From assembly GCA_036496605.1 (NCBI GenBank), contig DASXKV010000035.1:1-64000 (forward strand): 64,000 nucleotides of DNA. Direction: 5' to 3'. Below the pieces are notes generated by a model, which saw only the letters and a list, made by a program, of their open reading frames with translations, ran no database searches and was not told where the DNA came from. Source of the stretch: Gemmatimonadaceae bacterium (lineage in GTDB: Bacteria > Gemmatimonadota > Gemmatimonadetes > Gemmatimonadales > Gemmatimonadaceae). Made by a program: the position numbers and the translations under genes. Positions 36,570-61,193 of this stretch are shown here, one piece after another. Within the stretch, counting starts at the first letter, position 1; the number at the start of each line of letters is the position of its first letter.

Positions 36570-37361
36570 TCAGGAACCGGCGCCGGCGTCGTCGATTCCC
36601 AATCCGGCGATGAACGCCGCCGGCAGGTCGGCGCGAAGCCGTCGAAAGGTCATGACATCGAGCGCCGACGGCGCGACGTGAGATATCGTCGCGAGGCCGA
36701 TGGCGCGCTCGAGGTCGTGACAGTTGGTGATCACCGTGCGACCAAGACTGGCGGCGGTGAGAGCCGCTCCACCGAAGAACGCACCATCGAAGTTTGCGTT
36801 CAGCAGGAGGGCACCGCGGAGCGACGCCGACGCGAGCTTTATCGACGGGGCGTCAGCAAACTCGAATGTCGCGAAGGAGAGATCAGCGTGACGGCAATCG
36901 GCGAACCGAAGACAGGCACCCGTGAAATCGGCGCCGGTGCACTGCGCCCCCTGGAGCGTGGTGTGCATGAGGCGCGCCCACGTAAAACGCGCACTGCGCG
37001 CGGATGCTTTCCGCAGATCCGCATGATGCATGAACGCGCGCGTAAACGCCGCCTCGTCGAGCTGCGCGCCGGCAAAGCCGGCGTACAGCAAACGCGCATC
37101 GGTGAATAGCGCGCCGCGAACGTCAGCCTCCTGGAATTGCGCGCCACTCAGGTCGGCGCCCTCGAAATTCGCGCCGTCGAGGACGGCGCCTCGGAAGTCG
37201 GCCATCGAGAGGTCGCTGCCGCGAAAGTCAGCGCCGCGGAGCGCGAGATTCGCGAATGACTCGCGGGGAAGTGATTTGCCCGCGAACGTCTCTGTCGAAA
37301 AACGCTCTCCCGGCTCGGCGACTTCGGGAAGCGTTGTCGTGCTGTCGTAGTGCTCGCTCAC
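36570..37361 (-). CDS. Pentapeptide-repeat protein
   Basis: About 263 residues, mostly tandem A(D/N)Lxx/ADFRG-type pentapeptides: LALRGADFRGSDLSMADFRG, then GANFEGADLSGAQF, GADFTGACLRFADC and so on, forming a right-handed quadrilateral beta-helix. Repeats span about residues 35-215, after which a short degenerate tail ends GLGIDDAGAGS. GTG 37361 is taken as start; an upstream GTG at 37457 overlaps the molybdoenzyme gene and would add 32 residues. Such proteins range from gyrase protection to scaffolds; no specific role can be assigned. It follows the molybdoenzyme gene on the same strand. Confidence 0.78.
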   Translation of the reverse strand: MSEHYDSTTTLPEVAEPGERFSTETFAGKSLPRESFANLALRGADFRGSDLSMADFRGAVLDGANFEGADLSGAQFQEADVRGALFTDARLLYAGFAGAQLDEAAFTRAFMHHADLRKASARSARFTWARLMHTTLQGAQCTGADFTGACLRFADCRHADLSFATFEFADAPSIKLASASLRGALLLNANFDGAFFGGAALTAASLGRTVITNCHDLERAIGLATISHVAPSALDVMTFRRLRADLPAAFIAGLGIDDAGAGS

Positions 37362-40697: not shown

Positions 40698-43100
40698 CTA
40701 TTTCTTCGCGGCCTTGGGCTTCGTCTGCTCCTGCGTCTTCTGCGCCGGCGGCGGCTTTATCGGGAGCTGGATGCCCTCTGACTCGCTAGGCACGAGTGGC
40801 GACTGGTCGACCGCTCCACCTGGCGGCGTGTCGCCAACCAGCCGCTCGAGGTGCACGGCCGTCGCGACCTGCTTGGCCGTGTTCCACACCTGGTTCGCCT
40901 GCGTCTTGTCGCCGCGCGACGCCAGGGCTTCCGAGAGCTCGAGCCCTGTCGCGACGTAGAGGTATGGAATACCGACAGATGGCTGGTCGATCCAGTCGCC
41001 CGTTCGGATGACCGACTTCGGGCCGACGAAATCGTTGTTCCACAACTCCGCCGTGCGCTTCACATCCATCCAGCCGTCTCCCGCGACGTTCATCGTGTCG
41101 CGAGTCGATGCCTTTGGCGGAACGAAGACCTTCGCCGCGAGCGCCTGGGTCAGCACGTGGTCGCCGAGGCCGAGCTCACGCGCATAGCCACCGGAGGTAC
41201 GGCTGAAGTATATCGGACGTGAAGGGTACGAGTCCTGAATCATGCGCAACACGAAGAGATCCGCGCGCTGCAGCAGATGCGGTGGGATCACAGCGTTGAT
41301 GTCACACGTCGCGTTAGGCTCGGGGTGACATCCGGCCTTGAAGATCATCGGCTTATCGATCTGCCAATACGGTGGGACGGAGTCGGCCTCGTCGAGCGTC
41401 ATCTTGAGAGGTGCGGCCGCCGGCTTCTGCCACGTCGTGTTGCGATAGGCCGCCGGTCCCTTCGCTGCGTCGTAGGTGAAGATCGGCCGCCGGATGAGCT
41501 GTCGCGTGTACCAGTCGGTGTTGAGAAGAGACGTATTTGCGACAACGACGTCTTTTCTAATGCCCTCGACTTCCTGCGCGTACCAGAGAGGAAACGTATC
41601 GTTGTCGCCGACGGTGACGAGCACGCCGTACGGCTCGACGGAGTCGAGGAGATCGTGGGCGAAGTCCCTGGTGTACGTCTGTCCGCGCCGCGGCGCCGTG
41701 TGGATGTTCATCACCAGCGGGATTCCCGCGATGAGCAGGATTGGCGTCGTGAGGAGCAAACTCTGACGGTTCGGCAGGAAGACCGACTCGCGGCCCAAAC
41801 GCGTTTGCTCAGTGCCGAAGAGCGCAGCGAGATTCTCCCAGATGTACATCAAGCCTAACGCGGCCCAGACCCCCCACGCCGAGAAGCTCCAGAGGAAGAA
41901 ATAGTCCCGGTCGCGAACCTCGCGTTGCACGCTGTCGCCCAGCTCGGGAGACTGCGAGGATCCGTACTTGAAGTTCAGGTAGATAATGAGCACCAGGGTG
42001 ACGGTGAGCATATAGGTACCGAAGTACCAGAAGCTCCGCCGGTCACGCTGGAAATGCACCCAACCGCCAAAGAGACCGAGAACGAGGAATAGTCCGCCGA
42101 AGACACCCTGGAGCACCTGCGCCTTCAGTTGTGGATCGCGGAACCATTGCCACTTGAAGTAGAACCACCACATATCGACCTGCGCCGTGAACGGCGCTTG
42201 GCGGTCGCTGAGGTCGGGCTTGCCGTACTGTCCGCGATTGAAGTTGTACATGAACGCGTCGTACGTGCCCTTCGAGAACGTGCACGAGAAGTGGAGGCCG
42301 TCGCGACACGCGGTCGGTTCGCCTTCGTTGAGCGGCGGATTCCAGGCGGCGCGAATCGGCTGGATCGCGAATGGCGTGATGCCGAAAACGAGCGCCCCCC
42401 CACAGGCGAGCATAACTCGCCAACGCGTTAGCGTGCGCGGCCGACGCACGAGGACGGCAAGCGCCGCTGCTGGCGCGGCGAGCATGCCGCCCATGTGGTT
42501 CGCGTAGCCGAGGCCGAGCAGATACGCGACGAGCACGAGAATCCGATCTGCCTTGCGACCATCGGGATCGTCGGACCAGCGAATCATCAACCACGAAATG
42601 ATCGCGATGCCGACGAGCGAAACCGTGTAGACCTTCTCGTTGACGACGGACTGATTCCACACGGTGAAAGCCGTCGCGCCAATGAGCGCCGCGAGGGTGC
42701 CACCGGTGATGCGCTGCCAGCGCTGCGGAAACCACCCCACGAGCACGCGCTCGGTGACGAGGAACCACATCCCAGCCGACACCGCACTGCAGAGCGCGGC
42801 AAGGAAATTGATCCGCGACGCGACGCTCGGCCCGAAAAGGGGAATGATCGTGAACACGCGCCCGAGAAGCACGAAGAGCGGGTTACCGGGCGGGTGGGGC
42901 AGTCCGAGCGTATACGCGGCCGCAATGTACTCGCTCGTGTCCCACATCGCCGTCGAGGGCGCGAGGGTCACGAGGTAGAGCAGGAGTACAACGATCGCTA
43001 CGACAGCCGCCGCGATGTACGACGGGCGATAATCGAGATCATTAGCCGGCGCGCGATTTTCCGCGCGGGACGGACGTTGGGCGACAGAAGAGGTTGCCAT
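40698..43100 (-). CDS. DUF2723 polytopic membrane protein, probable lipid-linked glycosyltransferase
   Basis: An 800-residue inner-membrane protein. The N-terminal two thirds holds about 10-12 membrane spans starting at IAAAVVAIVVLLLYLVTLAP; the first loop has TAMWDTSEYIAAAYTLGLPHPPGNPLF, an acidic catalytic-type loop characteristic of DUF2723 and of GT-C (O-mannosyltransferase-like) enzymes. The remaining C-terminal third is a soluble periplasmic domain with PYGVLVTVGDNDTFPLWYAQEVEGIRKD, typical of the family, and ends in a Lys-rich tail. It starts at ATG 43100, 145 bases after a large heptamer-based repeat. GT-C membership is established for the family; donor and acceptor are unknown. Confidence 0.85.
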   Translation of the reverse strand: MATSSVAQRPSRAENRAPANDLDYRPSYIAAAVVAIVVLLLYLVTLAPSTAMWDTSEYIAAAYTLGLPHPPGNPLFVLLGRVFTIIPLFGPSVASRINFLAALCSAVSAGMWFLVTERVLVGWFPQRWQRITGGTLAALIGATAFTVWNQSVVNEKVYTVSLVGIAIISWLMIRWSDDPDGRKADRILVLVAYLLGLGYANHMGGMLAAPAAALAVLVRRPRTLTRWRVMLACGGALVFGITPFAIQPIRAAWNPPLNEGEPTACRDGLHFSCTFSKGTYDAFMYNFNRGQYGKPDLSDRQAPFTAQVDMWWFYFKWQWFRDPQLKAQVLQGVFGGLFLVLGLFGGWVHFQRDRRSFWYFGTYMLTVTLVLIIYLNFKYGSSQSPELGDSVQREVRDRDYFFLWSFSAWGVWAALGLMYIWENLAALFGTEQTRLGRESVFLPNRQSLLLTTPILLIAGIPLVMNIHTAPRRGQTYTRDFAHDLLDSVEPYGVLVTVGDNDTFPLWYAQEVEGIRKDVVVANTSLLNTDWYTRQLIRRPIFTYDAAKGPAAYRNTTWQKPAAAPLKMTLDEADSVPPYWQIDKPMIFKAGCHPEPNATCDINAVIPPHLLQRADLFVLRMIQDSYPSRPIYFSRTSGGYARELGLGDHVLTQALAAKVFVPPKASTRDTMNVAGDGWMDVKRTAELWNNDFVGPKSVIRTGDWIDQPSVGIPYLYVATGLELSEALASRGDKTQANQVWNTAKQVATAVHLERLVGDTPPGGAVDQSPLVPSESEGIQLPIKPPPAQKTQEQTKPKAAKK

Positions 43101-43245
43101 TGAGAATTCGTTACTTGCTCATAAAGCACACCCGAGCTCACTCGGTCGATCGGGCAGTTCTAGGACGATGAAAGATGAAGGAGTGAAACGGGAGAAGAAA
43201 GTGAACGCAGTCAGGGAAATGTCAGCCTGAAGGGCGGGAACTACT

Positions 43246-43621
43246 AGAGGGGCGCGTCGAGAACGGCGCGTCGAGAGGGGCGCGTCGAGAACAGCGCGTC
43301 GAAAAGAGCGCGCCGAGAAGACCGTTGACCAACGAGGTGTCAGCTTCGGGCGGCCAGCTGTGAGCAGGAGCTGAACGTTGTGGACCCAGGGCTCCAGGCT
43401 GACAGCTCGGAAGATTGTCGCCCATTCGACGCGCCGTTCTCGACGCGCCGTTCTCGACGCGCCCCTCTCGACGCGCCCCTCTCGACGCGCCCCTCTCGAC
43501 GCGCTCTTTTCGACGCGCTCTTTTCGACGCGCTCTTTTCGACGCGCTGTTCTCGACGCGCTGTTCTCGACGCGCTGTTCTCGACGCGCCGTTCTCGACGC
43601 GCCCTCTCGACGCGCCCCTCT
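43246..43621 (-). repeat. Large heptamer-based inverted repeat (14-bp units) upstream of DUF2723
   Basis: Plus strand 43427-43621 holds 14 tandem 14-bp units of the form CGACGCG plus a heptamer, in four variants: CCGTTCT, CCCCTCT, CTCTTTT, CTGTTCT, in the order A A B B B C C C D D D A B B (the 13th unit is one base short). About 110 nt away, 43246-43315 holds five units in the opposite orientation, carrying all four variants (order B A B D C). Read toward the DUF2723 gene on the minus strand it is a G/A-rich arm, a 110-nt spacer and a C/T-rich arm ending 145 bases before the ATG. No gene overlaps it. Confidence 0.88.
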
Positions 43622-43645
43622 CGACGCCCTCCGGCCCTTCACCCT

Positions 43646-45175
43646 TCAATGGCGGAATTGTCTCTTACCCGTCAGCACCATCGCGATCCCCCTCTCGTTC
43701 GCTGCGGCAATCACCTCGCCATCACGGACGGATCCGCCGGGCTGGACGATCGCGGTCACACCGGCTTCGGCAGCTTGATCGACGCCGTCGCGGAAGGGGA
43801 AATACGCGTCGGAGCCCAGGACCGCGCCCTTCGTGTCCAGTCCTTGCTGCTGAGCCTTGTGTACCGCGAGAAAGGCGGCGTCGACGCGCGACATCTGTCC
43901 GGCGCCGATGCCGATCGTTGCGCCGTCGCGCGCGAGCACAATCGCGTTCGATTTCACGGCCGCCACCGCGCGCCAGACGAAAAGAAGATCGCGGCGCTCG
44001 TCGGCCGTCGGCTCACGCGTCGTCGCAAGCTTCCACCCTTCGTCGTCGATCACGGTATGGGGACGCTCCTGCACCAGCACGCCGCCGCGTACGCGCTTGT
44101 AGTCCAGCGCGTGCGTGGGCCACGACGCGCGACCCTCGAGCACGCGCAGGTTCTTCTTGCGGCCGAGAATCTCGACGGCCTCCTCGCTGAACGACGGCGC
44201 GACGATGCACTCGACGAACAAGCTCGAGACGGCATCGGCCGTCGCTTCGTCGACGGGCACGGTGAACGCGATCACGGATCCGAACGCGGAGACCGGATCG
44301 CACGCCAGCGCTTTTCGATACGCGTCCAACGCACTCGCTCCGACGGCGAGACCGCACGGTGTCGTATGCTTGATGATCGCGCACGCGGTCTCGGCCGCGT
44401 ACGGATCGACGGTCAGCAACGCACCCTCCAGATCGAGGAGATTGTTGAACGACAACTCCTTTCCACCGCGCTGCACGAGTGACGACAGCCCGGCTGCGGG
44501 AAAGTCGACGTAGAACGCCGCGGCCTGATCCGGATTCTCTCCGTAACGCAGCTTCTGCTGTCGAGCGACCGAGAGCGTCACGGTTTCAGGAAACTTTTCC
44601 TGTCGCTGCTGGGCGAACCACGCCGCGATTGCCGCGTCGTACCCCGCGGTATGAGCAAATGCTTTCTCGGCGAGCAAACGGCGGAGATCCCAATCGTCGT
44701 CTTCGACCTTCAATGCCGCGAGCACGCGCGGGTAGTCGCGCGGCTCGACGACGACCAGCACTGCGTCGAAATTCTTCGCGGCGGATCGCAACATGCTCGG
44801 GCCGCCGATGTCGATCTGCTCGATCACTTCCTCCGGACTCACGCCGCTGCGCGCGGCCGTGGCGCGGAAGGGGTACAGATTCACAGCGACGAGATCGATT
44901 GGCGAGATCTTTTCGGCCTCGAGCGTCTTCATGTGCTCGGGGTTATCGCGTCGCGCGAGCAAGCCCCCGTGCACCGCGGGATGCAGCGTCTTTACGCGCC
45001 CATCGAGCATCTCGCGTACGCCGGTGATGTCACTGACGTCGCGCGGCGCGAGGCCGGCGTCACGCAACGCGCGCGCGGTGCCGCCGGTCGATACGATCTC
45101 CCATCCGAGCTCCACAATGCCGCGTGCGAAGTCGACGACGCCGGTTTTGTCGGAGACGGAGATGAGCGCGCGCAT
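43646..45175 (-). CDS. purH: Bifunctional AICAR transformylase/IMP cyclohydrolase
   Basis: A 509-residue enzyme for the last two steps of purine synthesis. The N-terminal cyclohydrolase domain begins [19 protein letters not shown] with [25 protein letters not shown] and [15 protein letters not shown]. The C-terminal transformylase domain has [46 protein letters not shown] and ends [17 protein letters not shown] 45175 overlaps the stop of the M42 peptidase gene (TGATG). The extra upstream open frame in the same register is antisense-like and unused. Downstream lies the large repeat at 43.2-43.6 kb. Confidence 0.96.
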
Positions 45176-47322
45176 CAGCGGGCGCCTCCACCAGTCATCG
45201 CGAGCGCCGCGATTATTCGCGAGAGCGAATGAATGTCGCGAAGGTCGAGCAGCTCGGCAGGGGAGTGGCTGTATCGTGAGGGCCAACCCAGCGGATCATC
45301 GAGCGCGCCGTAGTGTGCGAGCTCGGAGCCGTCGTTGCCGCCATTCGTCGTTCCAACCTGCAATGGGATGCGGTTGATGCGCGCCAGTCTCGTTATGCGG
45401 TCGACTTCCTCAGGGGGCGTCACGCTCGAGTTGTCCAGCGCTCGCGCCACGGCGCCCTCGCCGAGTTTCGCGTCTGCAAAACGCGAGCTCTCGAGCGGCG
45501 AATCGCTCGAGACGAAGGTATCGATCGCGTAGACGCGGCTCACGCTTGGTCCGAACTCCGCTGCGAGACCTCGCGCGCCCTCGAGGCCGCTCTCCTCGCG
45601 CACTGACCAGGCGAAGATCACTTTGTGATCGAGCTTCGCGCGTTCGATCGACTCGAGGGCGATCAGCATCGCGGTGTCGCCCGCCCGGTCGTCGATCGAG
45701 CGCGCGGTGAAGCGGGTGGTCGCAAGCCGTGCCGAGCATTTGTAGCTCGTGACAGCGTCCCCGATTGTAACGCCCGCCTTCACGAGGGCCGCCGAGTCGA
45801 GGCCGAACCAGGCGGTGAGCTGCGTTGGCTGTTTGTGCGGCGCGCTGTCTCGGGGAACGAAGACGCCACGGAGCGGTCCTTCGCGCGCGGCGCCGCATGA
45901 CCGAGCGTCACGGGCCGGGATCTTGTCATCGTTGCGATGCAGCAGCGCCGTCTGACCTTCCCAGAGAGACTCGAAGAAGCCACCGCGCGTCCGCAGCGAC
46001 ACCGTGCCGTCCTTCGCGATATGTGAGACCTCGAAACCGACTTCGTCCATGTGCGCGACGAAAACGGTGGTGTCGCGATCGGGGCCCATCGCGAGATACA
46101 GATTGCCAGCGCTGTCGGTGACGACGGAATCGCGCGCCCAGGCCGGCAGTGCTTCTTTCACGGCGTCGCGCATCGCCGCTTCGTGGCCAGCCACGCCGTA
46201 GACGTCGGCGAGGCGGCCGAGCAGGTCTGCATAACGAGAGAGGCTATCGTGCAGCACCGAGGGCGGTGGCGGGGCCCAGACGCGCGCGAGCATGATCGGC
46301 GGCGGCGTGCCTGGGATGCCGGCCAACCTCGCCACGGTGGTAAAGAGATCGCGGAGGTCTTCCTCGCTGATGCTCTCGACGAGGGTACCCGTCCAGCGCG
46401 TCTGCGGCACGGCGGCCAGCGATGTCGTCACCTGCACGCGTGGCATCGCACTCCAGGGACTCGCGCGCGGTCCGGCCAACATCGTTCCCGCGCGCGCGAG
46501 CGCCTCGTCGAGCACGATGAGCGTATCGATCTGGCCGAGCCGCGCGAGCACGGCGCTCAATCCCGTGAAGTTGAATCGGCTCTGCGTGCTCACGACGAAG
46601 ATGGTCTCGCCGGACTTCGGCGCAGCCGCCTGGCTCGCGGCGACGATGGCGGCGCATGACGCGCGATTCGCGGCACCGGGCCCGGCGACGTGGTCCGCGA
46701 ATGTCCATGACGGCCACTCGCGATGCACGGCATCGAGGATCTGGATGCCAAGGTGCGCGACGTCGGCGCGAGAGCGCGCGCCGATGTCGATCCAAAGATC
46801 CTCAACACCCGCCGGCGTATCCTCAGCGGACCGGCGGCGCCAGAGGTGTGTGCTGCGGACGCCGACGACGCCGGGAATGTATCGCTCCACATCGCCGGCG
46901 TGGCCGACGACGTACACGCGTTGCCCCTCGTGGAACTGGTCCCACAATGCACCGCGGCGCCCATTCCCGGCTGGATGCACTCTGAGGTAGCCCTCGTCGG
47001 TAATCTCACTCACGGCGTAGCCGACCTCGTCGATGCCGCAAGCGAGCACGCGGCGCGGCTTTCCCGAGCCGACGCGCCTAACGAGATTGCCGAGGGCATC
47101 GCGCGCGAAGCCGCGCGTCGCCGACTGAATGCGACCCGTGGCCTGGTCCTCGTTGCCGGGCGTCGCCGGAACCGCGATCCATGTCGTGAGCGCGTGCGCA
47201 TACGTGAGCTTGTCCTGAGCATGCGACGGCGCCGCAAGCGTCGTCGTCAGCGCCGCCGCGAAGAGCAGAGCGCACCCGTCAGCAGGCAAGCGCGCGATCG
47301 ATGGCTTCGGCAAGGCAATCAT
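45175..47322 (-). CDS. Exported tandem M42-type metallopeptidase, N-terminal copy degenerate
   Basis: A 715-residue protein with a signal peptide (LLFAAALTTTLAAPSHAQ). It carries two M42/M28-like domains. The N-terminal one (about 40-340) has VLACGIDEVGYAVSEITDEGYLRV, where the first metal-binding His is replaced by Gly, and lacks other ligands. The C-terminal one (about 365-700) has VFVAHMDEVGFEVS, IDDRAGDTAMLIALE, WSVREESGLEGARG, AIDTFVSSDSP and a late HSPAELLDL, a full set of two-zinc ligands. M42 enzymes are aminopeptidases; the exported form suggests peptide scavenging in the periplasm. It overlaps purN by about 44 bases. Confidence 0.82.
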   Translation of the reverse strand: MIALPKPSIARLPADGCALLFAAALTTTLAAPSHAQDKLTYAHALTTWIAVPATPGNEDQATGRIQSATRGFARDALGNLVRRVGSGKPRRVLACGIDEVGYAVSEITDEGYLRVHPAGNGRRGALWDQFHEGQRVYVVGHAGDVERYIPGVVGVRSTHLWRRRSAEDTPAGVEDLWIDIGARSRADVAHLGIQILDAVHREWPSWTFADHVAGPGAANRASCAAIVAASQAAAPKSGETIFVVSTQSRFNFTGLSAVLARLGQIDTLIVLDEALARAGTMLAGPRASPWSAMPRVQVTTSLAAVPQTRWTGTLVESISEEDLRDLFTTVARLAGIPGTPPPIMLARVWAPPPPSVLHDSLSRYADLLGRLADVYGVAGHEAAMRDAVKEALPAWARDSVVTDSAGNLYLAMGPDRDTTVFVAHMDEVGFEVSHIAKDGTVSLRTRGGFFESLWEGQTALLHRNDDKIPARDARSCGAAREGPLRGVFVPRDSAPHKQPTQLTAWFGLDSAALVKAGVTIGDAVTSYKCSARLATTRFTARSIDDRAGDTAMLIALESIERAKLDHKVIFAWSVREESGLEGARGLAAEFGPSVSRVYAIDTFVSSDSPLESSRFADAKLGEGAVARALDNSSVTPPEEVDRITRLARINRIPLQVGTTNGGNDGSELAHYGALDDPLGWPSRYSHSPAELLDLRDIHSLSRIIAALAMTGGGAR

Positions 47323-55397: not shown

Positions 55398-55562
55398 GTG
55401 GTAGTTGGTAGTTGGTCGTTGGTCGTTGGTCGTTGGTCGTTGGTTATTGGTAATTGCTAGCGACGAGCCACGAACCACCAACCACCAACCACCAACCACC
55501 AACCACCAACCACCAACCACCAACCACCAACCACCAACCACCAACCACCAGCAACCAGCCAC
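55398..55562 (+). repeat. Heptamer-periodic inverted repeat before thrS
   Basis: A G/T-rich arm with unit GTCGTTG (about 55400-55455) and, 20 nt later, a long C/A-rich arm with unit CACCAAC repeated about ten times (55477-55555), ending only a few bases before the thrS ATG. The arms are complementary apart from one position per unit. In one frame the C/A arm would encode PPTTNHQ repeats, but it lies upstream of the true start. Confidence 0.9.
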
Positions 55563-55564
55563 CA

Positions 55565-57493
55565 ATGCAAACCGACGAGATCACACTCACGCTTCCCGAT
55601 GGCGCCACTCGCACGGTGTCGCGCGGGACGCTGCCGAGTGAAGTCGTGCGGTCGATCGGTGAGCGGTTGTTGCGCGACGCGATCGCCGTCGAGATCGATG
55701 GCCAGATTCAGGATCTCATGACGCCGCTCCGATCGAGTGGATCCTTCCGCGTCCTGACGCGGAAAGATCCACGCTCGCTCGAGGTGCTTCGTCACTCGGC
55801 GGCGCACGTTCTCGCGACTGCCGTGCGTCGTCTCCGTCCCGAGGCGAAGATCGGGTTCGGTCCGGCGATCGAGGATGGCTTCTACTACGACTTCGAGGTC
55901 GACAAGCCCTTCACACCCGAGGATCTCGCCGCCTTCGAGGCGGAGATGAGCAAGGTTGCCGAGGAGAAGTACCCCTTCGTGCGCGCAGAAGTGTCGCGCA
56001 AAGACGCGCAGAGGATTTTTGTTGAGGATCCACTCAAGTTAGAGCGGCTCGGCGAACTCGGTGACGGCGAGGTGATCTCGACGTACACTGATGGTCCGTT
56101 TGTCGATCTGTGTCGTGGACCGCACGTGCCAGATACCTCGTACGTGCGTGCTACCAAACTGACCTCCGTAGCTTCCGCGTACTGGCGCGGCGACGAGAAG
56201 CGCCAGCAGTTGCAGCGTATTTACGGCACCGCGTGGTGGAAGCAGGAGGATCTCGATGCGTATGTCTTCCGCACCGAGGAAGCGAAGCGTCGCGATCATC
56301 GCAAGCTCGGTCGCGAGCTCGATCTCTTCCTGATGAGTCCTGTCTCGCCCGGTGCCACCTTCTGGACCGAGCGCGGGACGTTCCTGTATAACACACTCGT
56401 CGACTTCATTCGCGAGCGTCAACGCGGACAGTTTCAAGAGATCAAAACTCCGCTCATCTACAACAAGGCGCTCTGGGAGCAGTCGGGTCACTGGGGCAAG
56501 TATCGCGAGAACATGTTCCTCATACTCGACAAAGAGACGAATGAGCACGACATGTCGCTCAAGCCGATGAACTGCCCGTCGCACTACGTGCTGTACCTCT
56601 CGAAGCGGCATTCGTACCGCGAGCTGCCCAAGCGCTTCGTGACCTTCGACGTGCTGCATCGCAACGAGGTGACAGGCGCCCTGTCCGGACTCACTCGCGT
56701 TAGGCAGTTCCAGCAGGACGACTGCCACGTCTTTCTGCGCGAGGATCAGATCGAGCAGGAGGTCAAGTTCCTGATGGGCTTCATCCTCGCCTACTACGCG
56801 ACGTTTGGTCTGACGGCGCAGGTGCGTTTCGCGACTCGGCCGCCGGTGCGGCTGGGCGACGATGCGCTCTGGGATCGCGCCGAGGCGGCGCTCAAGGCGG
56901 CGCTCGACGCCACGGGCGCCGCGTACGAGCTCAAGCCTGGCGACGGTGCGTTTTACGGCCCCAAGATCGATTTCGATGTCACCGACTCGTTAGGTCGCGC
57001 CTGGCAGCTGGGGACGATCCAGCTCGACTACAACGCGCCGGAGCGGTTCAACCTGCTCTATGTCGGCGAGGACAACGCCGAGCACCGTCCGGTGGTGATT
57101 CACCGCGCGGTGAGCGGCTCGCTCGAGCGATTCATCGCGATCCTCATCGAGCACTTTGCGGGTGCGTTCCCGGTGTGGCTGGCACCGGAGCAGGTGCGCG
57201 TGTTGCCGATCTCCGACGAGGTGAAGGAGGTCGCGGCGAAGATCGCGGTCGAGATGCGTGCGGCGGGCTTGCGCGCGTCGCTCGACGACCGTTCGGAAAC
57301 ACTCAACTATCGAATTCGTGACGGCGAGGTAATGAAGGTCCCGTACATGGCCGTTGTCGGCAAACGCGAAGCGGAGGCGGGAACCATCGCCGTGAGGGCG
57401 CGCGGGGCGGGGAAGAAGCAGGAGATCGTCCCGGTCGCGGAGTTCATCGAACGCATCAGGCGGGAGTCGGAGACGCGTGCACTGAGTACGTGA
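55565..57493 (+). CDS. thrS: Threonyl-tRNA synthetase
   Basis: A 642-residue class II synthetase with N-terminal TGS domain (ITLTLPDGATRTVSRGTLPSE), editing domain (LRHSAAHVLATAVRRLRPEAKIGFGPAIEDGFYYDF, split), zinc-binding and catalytic core with KPMNCPSH, FVTFDVLHRNEVTGALSGLTRVRQFQQDDCHVF (split) and C-terminal anticodon domain (PVWLAPEQVRVLPISDE). ATG 55565 has no Shine-Dalgarno sequence; the preceding bases are the C/A-rich repeat arm. A longer in-frame start inside the repeat is rejected. A hairpin at 57496-57526 follows the stop. Confidence 0.96.
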   Translation: MQTDEITLTLPDGATRTVSRGTLPSEVVRSIGERLLRDAIAVEIDGQIQDLMTPLRSSGSFRVLTRKDPRSLEVLRHSAAHVLATAVRRLRPEAKIGFGPAIEDGFYYDFEVDKPFTPEDLAAFEAEMSKVAEEKYPFVRAEVSRKDAQRIFVEDPLKLERLGELGDGEVISTYTDGPFVDLCRGPHVPDTSYVRATKLTSVASAYWRGDEKRQQLQRIYGTAWWKQEDLDAYVFRTEEAKRRDHRKLGRELDLFLMSPVSPGATFWTERGTFLYNTLVDFIRERQRGQFQEIKTPLIYNKALWEQSGHWGKYRENMFLILDKETNEHDMSLKPMNCPSHYVLYLSKRHSYRELPKRFVTFDVLHRNEVTGALSGLTRVRQFQQDDCHVFLREDQIEQEVKFLMGFILAYYATFGLTAQVRFATRPPVRLGDDALWDRAEAALKAALDATGAAYELKPGDGAFYGPKIDFDVTDSLGRAWQLGTIQLDYNAPERFNLLYVGEDNAEHRPVVIHRAVSGSLERFIAILIEHFAGAFPVWLAPEQVRVLPISDEVKEVAAKIAVEMRAAGLRASLDDRSETLNYRIRDGEVMKVPYMAVVGKREAEAGTIAVRARGAGKKQEIVPVAEFIERIRRESETRALST

Positions 57494-61079: not shown

Positions 61080-61080
61080 G

Positions 61081-61190
61081 GTTGTTGGTGGTTGGTGATC
61101 GGTGGTTGGCGGGTAGGGACTGCCGGAACGAAGCGCTGGCAAATCCGAACGCACCAATCACCAACCACCAATCACCAATCACAAATCACG
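61081..61190 (+). repeat. Heptamer-periodic inverted repeat before acyl-CoA dehydrogenase
   Basis: G/T-rich arm (61084-61128, units GTGGTTG, GTGATCG) and C/A-rich arm (61151-61186, units CACCAAC, CACCAAT), complementary and ending about 7 nt before the ATG of the acyl-CoA dehydrogenase. Strong copy, closely resembling those at 55.4 and 63.5 kb. Confidence 0.88.
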
Positions 61191-61193
61191 ACC

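Follow-up and report, generated by a model that had tools for sequence, protein, structure and literature searches.

The array of facing 14-bp repeats between purH and a DUF2723 gene in the window (the whole stretch of 64,000 nucleotides analyzed here, from a soil bacterium of the Gemmatimonadaceae, contig DASXKV010000035.1) is probably a gene-less, that is, non-autonomous, copy of a small IVP/S23 foldback element. Within the genome it would belong to the subfamily whose IVP genes (PF05635) are located on contigs C10 and C16. The reading draws on unit matching, gene association, dispersal, presence/absence polymorphism and purifying selection on the IVP protein, all of which were observed. As best we can read these data, the IVP/S23 foldback element works like the REPIN/RAYT system without being a member of it, and is related to the intervening sequences of rRNA. 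The array and its neighbors are organized as follows.

40698 to 43100, minus strand: TMEM260-like/DUF2723 protein O-mannosyl-transferase (PF11028), starting about 145 nt beyond the array
43246 to 43319, minus strand: left (5-unit) arm of 14-bp units, with the core TCGACGCGC on the minus strand; B A B D C in plus-strand order
43320 to 43425, no strand: central core, with inverted repeats of its own
43426 to 43629, plus strand: right arm, 14 units and a partial core; AABBBCCCDDDABB
43646 to 45286, minus strand: purH (AICARFT/IMPCHase, MGS domain; PF01808/PF02142), ending about 17 nt from the array

The facing array described in the earlier note is real, with 5 units opposite 14, and the positions of the cores and the identity of the spacers bear out the variant order given there for the right arm as well as that of the opposing arm. 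The description as fourteen 14-bp units at 43246-43621 is correct in the number of units, although one of them is 13 bp long and the array reaches about 43629. Specifically, the right-arm cores TCGACGCGC are found at 43426, 43440, 43454, 43468, 43482, 43496, 43510, 43524, 43538, 43552, 43566, 43580, 43594 and 43607, with the partial core at 43621, and the 5-nt spacers are, in order, CGTTC twice (A), CCCTC three times (B), TCTTT three times (C), TGTTC three times (D), and then A, B and B. The first of the two final B units lacks one C, whereas the other 13 units are all 14 bp. Almost all the variation in the array falls in this pyrimidine-rich spacer, the 9-nt core being nearly constant.

Adjacent identical units are more frequent in the window array than in shuffles (8 vs 2.7, p about 0.001), the same excess of runs is found over all arms (p=0.004), and variants are shared within the two arms of a locus more than between arms of different loci (p=0.005, 11 loci). 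The local, unit-by-unit duplication with homogenisation that had been proposed from the variant order agrees with these statistics, and also with related elements on near-identical plasmids, in which the length of one arm varies by exactly 7 or 14 bp. The two arms can indeed pair in many registers, as had been suggested, and the single strand is predicted to fold strongly (z about -10). No arrays were obtained from shuffled sequence. An Rfam scan of 42800-44000 gave no match, and a known RNA family was rejected on that ground.

The position between purH and the DUF2723 gene, both on the minus strand, is verified on either flank by Pfam matches, but the proposal that the array forms a large leader specific to DUF2723 is not supported. 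In the sister species (purH 81% identical), the same position contains no 14-mer array but a terminator-like hairpin with another repeat unit, and in the genome analyzed here the array family is found at about 28 sites. A leader or terminator specific to purH/DUF2723 was rejected given the array-less sister species; the identical order in distant strains that would have spoken against the earlier reading was not seen, the array being simply missing there. The 145-bp segment that separates the array from the DUF2723 start retains similarity to the sister species and, because this segment resembles that of a genome without the array, the array appears more likely to lie upstream of the DUF2723 promoter than to be part of a leader. 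The earlier interpretation was thus supported in part and missed the dispersed nature of the element. A more general version of the regulatory idea is that the array serves the host as a terminator, mRNA stabiliser or leader in the purH-DUF2723 region, with IVP as the RNA-binding regulator of such structures. Such a role would be in the spirit of proposals for the TAACTGA and GGGAATC repeats and would account for the very stable predicted fold, the intergenic position and the terminator-like cores in some copies (L007, L043). We nevertheless consider it improbable, given the vacant site in the sister species, the empty alleles on near-identical plasmids described below, and neighbors without evident functional linkage.

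Dispersal is apparent from the genome itself (G000; 70 contigs, 5.97 Mb). Half of the roughly 28 loci of the facing 14-mer family (14) lie at contig ends, so that the assembled array lengths are lower bounds there. The pattern TCGACGCGCN5TCGACGCGC occurs 225 times in the genome, compared to 0 for the reversed control, and the central core (43320-43425) has four homologues (74-81%), solely inside other 14-mer-array elements (C46, C58 and, twice, C60). A terminator-like hairpin core (GAAACGGGCGC...GCGCCCGATTTCC) is present between 14-mer arms in this genome (the L007, L043, L014 and L034 set) and between differing arms in the sister species G001. A second family, of CCACCAA/TTGGTGG heptamers, has 59 matches among those listed for the genome, and the window contains two of its members.

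55399 to 55565, no strand: second element, TGGTAGT/TGGTCGT facing CCACCAA heptamers; same kind, other unit
61080 to 61191, no strand: third element, GGTGGTT facing CACCAAC heptamers; same kind

Both of these heptamer arrays extend as far as the start codon (ATG) of the following ORF. The IVP gene at G000:C30:7178, which lies between TTGGTGG arrays, is the likely cognate gene of the element at 55399-55565. In a random sample of G000, the density of facing arrays was modest, with 1 pair outside the window; array densities, here and below, are those of samples of 270-460 kb rather than of whole genomes. The window also contains a period-30 repeat at 37135-37209, within coding sequence and pentapeptide-repeat-like.

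The link to the IVP protein comes from two 14-mer loci that contain an ORF assigned by Pfam to PF05635 (23S_rRNA_IVP, four helix bundle/S23). In C16, the gene is located between both arms; in C10, the right arm is present and the left one is cut by the contig end. The window copy has no PF05635-family ORF between its arms. The genome encodes 11 IVP genes, at least one such gene is present in 36 of the 41 genomes searched, and there are 0 in 14 control genomes. Most of the other IVP genes of this genome are also found between facing arrays, each with a different unit (GGGCGAC, GGCGCGCGAGGAAC, TAGAGGG, TTGGTGG, GGGCTAG and a 17-mer at C59; the C8 gene has a long inverted repeat). More generally, IVP genes mostly come with their own tandem unit, usually of 7 or 14 bp. 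The location of IVP genes inside rRNA genes was rejected, since the three IVP loci scanned contained no rRNA and one distant tRNA only. Phage records gave no IVP match at the sensitivity used.

PF05635 is a large protein family without an assigned function, for which, to our knowledge, no catalytic activity has been described. Among solved structures, 2gsc (Xcc0516) and 2rld are the closest, and the C10/C16 subfamily has lost the N of the usual motif as well as its RR. In the C10/C16 pair, dN is 0.18 vs a dS of about 3.9 (near saturation), and in the G025/G040 pair, dN is 0.038 vs a dS of 0.27. Because dN is well below dS in these pairs, the IVP protein is under purifying selection.

The association between IVP genes and facing arms was quantified by scoring each left flank against the reverse complement of the right flank, with cross-locus pairs as the null. 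Within loci the median score is 55, compared to 21 across loci. For 40 of the 57 IVP genes in Gemmatimonadota, the inverted flanks match with a score that attains or exceeds the 99th percentile of cross-locus pairs, whereas none of the 721 control ORFs from the genome analyzed here reaches this cut-off or exceeds a score of 35. The cross-locus comparison takes composition into account, so the match between the two arms is specific. A strict periodicity detector recovers 26 of the same 57 loci, missing many short arms. Facing arms at IVP genes were found also in Cyanobacteria, Xanthomonas, Acidobacteria, Bacteroidetes and ANME archaea. Among the loci on cyanobacterial plasmids, 7 of 10 score at least 46 (two of the seven are near-identical copies from one strain), and short arms are visible by eye at two further plasmid loci, in Trichormus and Scytonema. 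Of the scorable GTDB loci, which represent many phyla including ANME-1 archaea, 34 of 75 attain at least the 99th percentile, and short arms are seen at many others. Where arms are present, the G-rich one is 5' of the gene in 70 of 79 loci (p=8e-13) and the unit period is 7 or 14 in 54 of 80, the loci not all being independent in either count. About a quarter of the IVP genes have no recognisable arms.

The units of gene-less arrays correspond to those at IVP genes elsewhere in the same genome. In Gemmatirosa kalamazoonensis (G018), which has 9 IVP genes, 400 kb of sampled sequence contain 21 facing arrays, and 17 of these match the unit of one of eight of its own IVP flanks, a match meaning that the own flanks outscore 95% or more of the pools of equal size drawn from other genomes. 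The contrast in array density between IVP-rich and IVP-free genomes depends on few genomes and is not clean everywhere: 359 kb of the IVP-free G031 contain neither a facing array nor one of period 7, and the IVP-free G005 has 1 facing array (period 9) in 269 kb, whereas G021, with 11 IVP genes, has just 2 in 329 kb. In three Xanthomonas species (L181, L186, L190), an IVP gene is located between accB and accC (neighbors read from flanking sequence, without annotation) with short GGGAATC-type arms on both sides, and the genomes contain 327-394 dispersed GGGAATC triplet matches each, compared to 0 for the control. For these heptamers, the searched text of an earlier study gives 70-75 convergent pairs (PMC4692102).

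Could the arrays be neutral minisatellites, produced by replication slippage and fold-back template switching, with nearby IVP genes merely tolerated? Gain and loss of 7- or 14-bp units, runs of identical variants and the concordance between arms fit slippage plus conversion well. However, slippage leaves unexplained the occurrence of one unit at about 28 distant sites with a shared core, the unit-specific match to IVP loci in trans, the enrichment around one gene family across phyla, and the insertions that comprise gene plus arms; we therefore regard an entirely neutral origin as unlikely.

An indication that the IVP/S23 foldback elements move is provided by cyanobacterial plasmids, 90-98% identical to each other, in which the element is filled, gene-less or absent at the same sites. 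At the first such site, on conjugative plasmids with about 98% identity, the same operon gap is 13 bp in L224, L225 and L226 and 427-441 bp, with arms and an IVP gene, in L140 and L139; Brasilonema has a gene-less version and Nostoc C052 a shortened one. The junctions read AAA[GTAAT]AAATCAG ... TTCTTT[GTAAT]TAACAAAT and, since GTAAT is found at both of them, the insert is flanked by a 5-bp direct repeat of the target. At the second site, a gap of 3 bp compares to one of 468 bp, and at the third, some alleles are filled and others are gene-less, empty or built from a different unit. In one arm, a length difference of 7 bp separates two of the filled alleles, and a difference of 14 bp separates two others. 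An IVP insertion lies between ribonucleotide reductase genes at a site that is empty in Calothrix. IVP genes have been reported in cas loci (PMC3936711). In type I-D CRISPR loci of the Anabaena sp. 90 (L135) and Pseudanabaena galeata (L143) plasmids, an IVP gene with arrays is located between cas6 and cas4, where Pseudanabaena ABRG5-3 has a short gap; this gene is likely an insertion rather than a cas gene. The mobility suggested by the filled, gene-less and empty alleles is thus a deduction from sequence comparison; a clean short direct repeat is seen at one site only, and the alleles of any single site could come from excision as well as from insertion.

Two observations on plasmid loci can be added. 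In Nostoc sp. C057 p057_H (L235), the gap on the TraM side (562-903) contains a different facing array, of AAAATTC units, and other repeats, as if it were an insertion hot spot. The IVP ORFs of L141 and L232 are identical at 362 of 363 positions, compared to 433 of 512 for the upstream gene and 658 of 693 for the downstream one, suggesting a recent spread or conversion of the element.

In the element as we propose it, tandem units, mostly of 7 or 14 bp, make up two facing arms that enclose either a PF05635 gene or just a short core, and the G-rich arm is on the 5' side of the gene strand. Several subfamilies can coexist in a genome, each having a unit and an IVP gene of its own, and the gene-less copies carry the unit of a resident IVP. 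An IVP oligomer might recognise its own unit in the arms, probably as a hairpin or cruciform, and promote the copying of the element or its insertion into intergenic gaps; replication or repair enzymes of the host might take part. If anything bounded by arms is copied or inserted, gene-less copies could spread in trans. The arms would grow by slippage, yielding runs such as BBB CCC DDD, and could homogenise or exchange variants by mutual pairing.

Reports of dispersed heptamer repeats go back decades, but a source for them has been missing. By joining PF05635 to these repeats, the unit-specific matching yields a testable hypothesis, namely that the protein recognises and spreads its own unit. 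Should IVP move DNA despite having no nuclease or polymerase domain that is recognised, this would be a new mechanism; should it recruit host enzymes, the element, at about 430 bp, would count as a minimal mobile element. IVP genes in cas or ribonucleotide reductase operons would then appear to be insertions, not functional partners. With confidence somewhat short of even, we further suggest that PF05635 proteins and facing 7n-bp arrays together form a very widespread class of mobile elements, which extends over many bacterial phyla as well as some archaea. Its copies, both autonomous and gene-less, would be unit-specific and would move without a known transposase or reverse transcriptase. This class would be the source of many published heptamers (Xanthomonas GGGAATC, cyanobacterial STRRs, perhaps Beggiatoa TAACTGA) and of the S23-bearing rRNA intervening sequences.

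Some pieces of this picture are known, namely the S23-bearing IVS described as selfish, IVP genes in cas loci and dispersed heptamers (PMC4990558, PMC3936711, PMC4692102 in its searched text, PMC4679880). The searchable literature contains no paper tying IVP genes to facing arrays, nor did we find there unit matching in trans or gene-less copies as dependants of IVP; with subscription papers and preprints thinly covered, this is weak evidence of novelty. In the searched text on the Xanthomonas and Nostoc heptamers (PMC4692102) and the cyanobacterial STRRs, such arrays are treated as simple repeats or G-quadruplex formers, and no partner gene is mentioned; the arrays are of the same kind as those described here, where the same unit flanks an IVP gene. 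The TAACTGA repeats of Beggiatoaceae, Bacteroidetes and cyanobacteria are likewise intergenic heptamer arrays in distant lineages, for which a mobile element or binding protein has been suspected, but they are mostly direct repeats with no reported IVP partner (PMC4679880).

Diversity-generating retroelements, or other reverse transcriptase-dependent retrohoming with an Avd-like protein, come to mind because PF05635 has been reported as homologous to the DGR protein Avd (PMC10053308). This origin is very doubtful, however: Gemmatirosa has its 9 IVP genes and no RVT_1 (PF00078) match, and reverse transcriptases are found in 8 of 41 relatives vs 36 of 41 for IVP. The only match in the genome analyzed here is an apparently broken reverse transcriptase, split over two frames (G000:C38:192525-193035).

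REPIN/RAYT systems consist of REP doublets located between genes and a TnpA_REP transposase gene flanked by the same repeats, in a subfamily-specific manner. A true system of this type, with intergenic REP-like palindromes moved by RAYT, would have the same architecture of dispersed facing repeats that are shared with the flanks of a partner gene, with several subfamilies per genome, and this likeness was found here. Yet the partner is a PF05635 four-helix bundle rather than a Y1 transposase, PF01797 (Y1_Tnp) has no match in this genome or in the array-rich Gemmatirosa, and the arms are tandem arrays of 7-17 bp units instead of single REP hairpins, so that actual membership is highly improbable. 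Given the lack of RVT_1 and Y1_Tnp matches in Gemmatirosa, the elements of that genome do not require RAYT or a typical reverse transcriptase.

Eukaryotic foldback (FB) transposons have long inverted arms of short tandem units around a loop; the IVP/S23 foldback elements resemble them in arm design, but FB transposons are eukaryotic, show no homology and have different proteins. A close parallel is the 23S rRNA IVS, known for example from Leptospira and Coxiella burnetii, which in the latter is about 430 nt long, with terminal inverted repeats, a PF05635/S23 ORF and strain-variable GACAGAT heptamers before the ORF, and has been described as selfish (PMC4990558). Autonomous copies such as that on C16 share the PF05635 ORF within terminal inverted repeats, whereas the window copy is intergenic, between purH and DUF2723, rather than within a 23S rRNA gene, and the elements described here have long two-sided tandem arms and many gene-less copies of the same unit.
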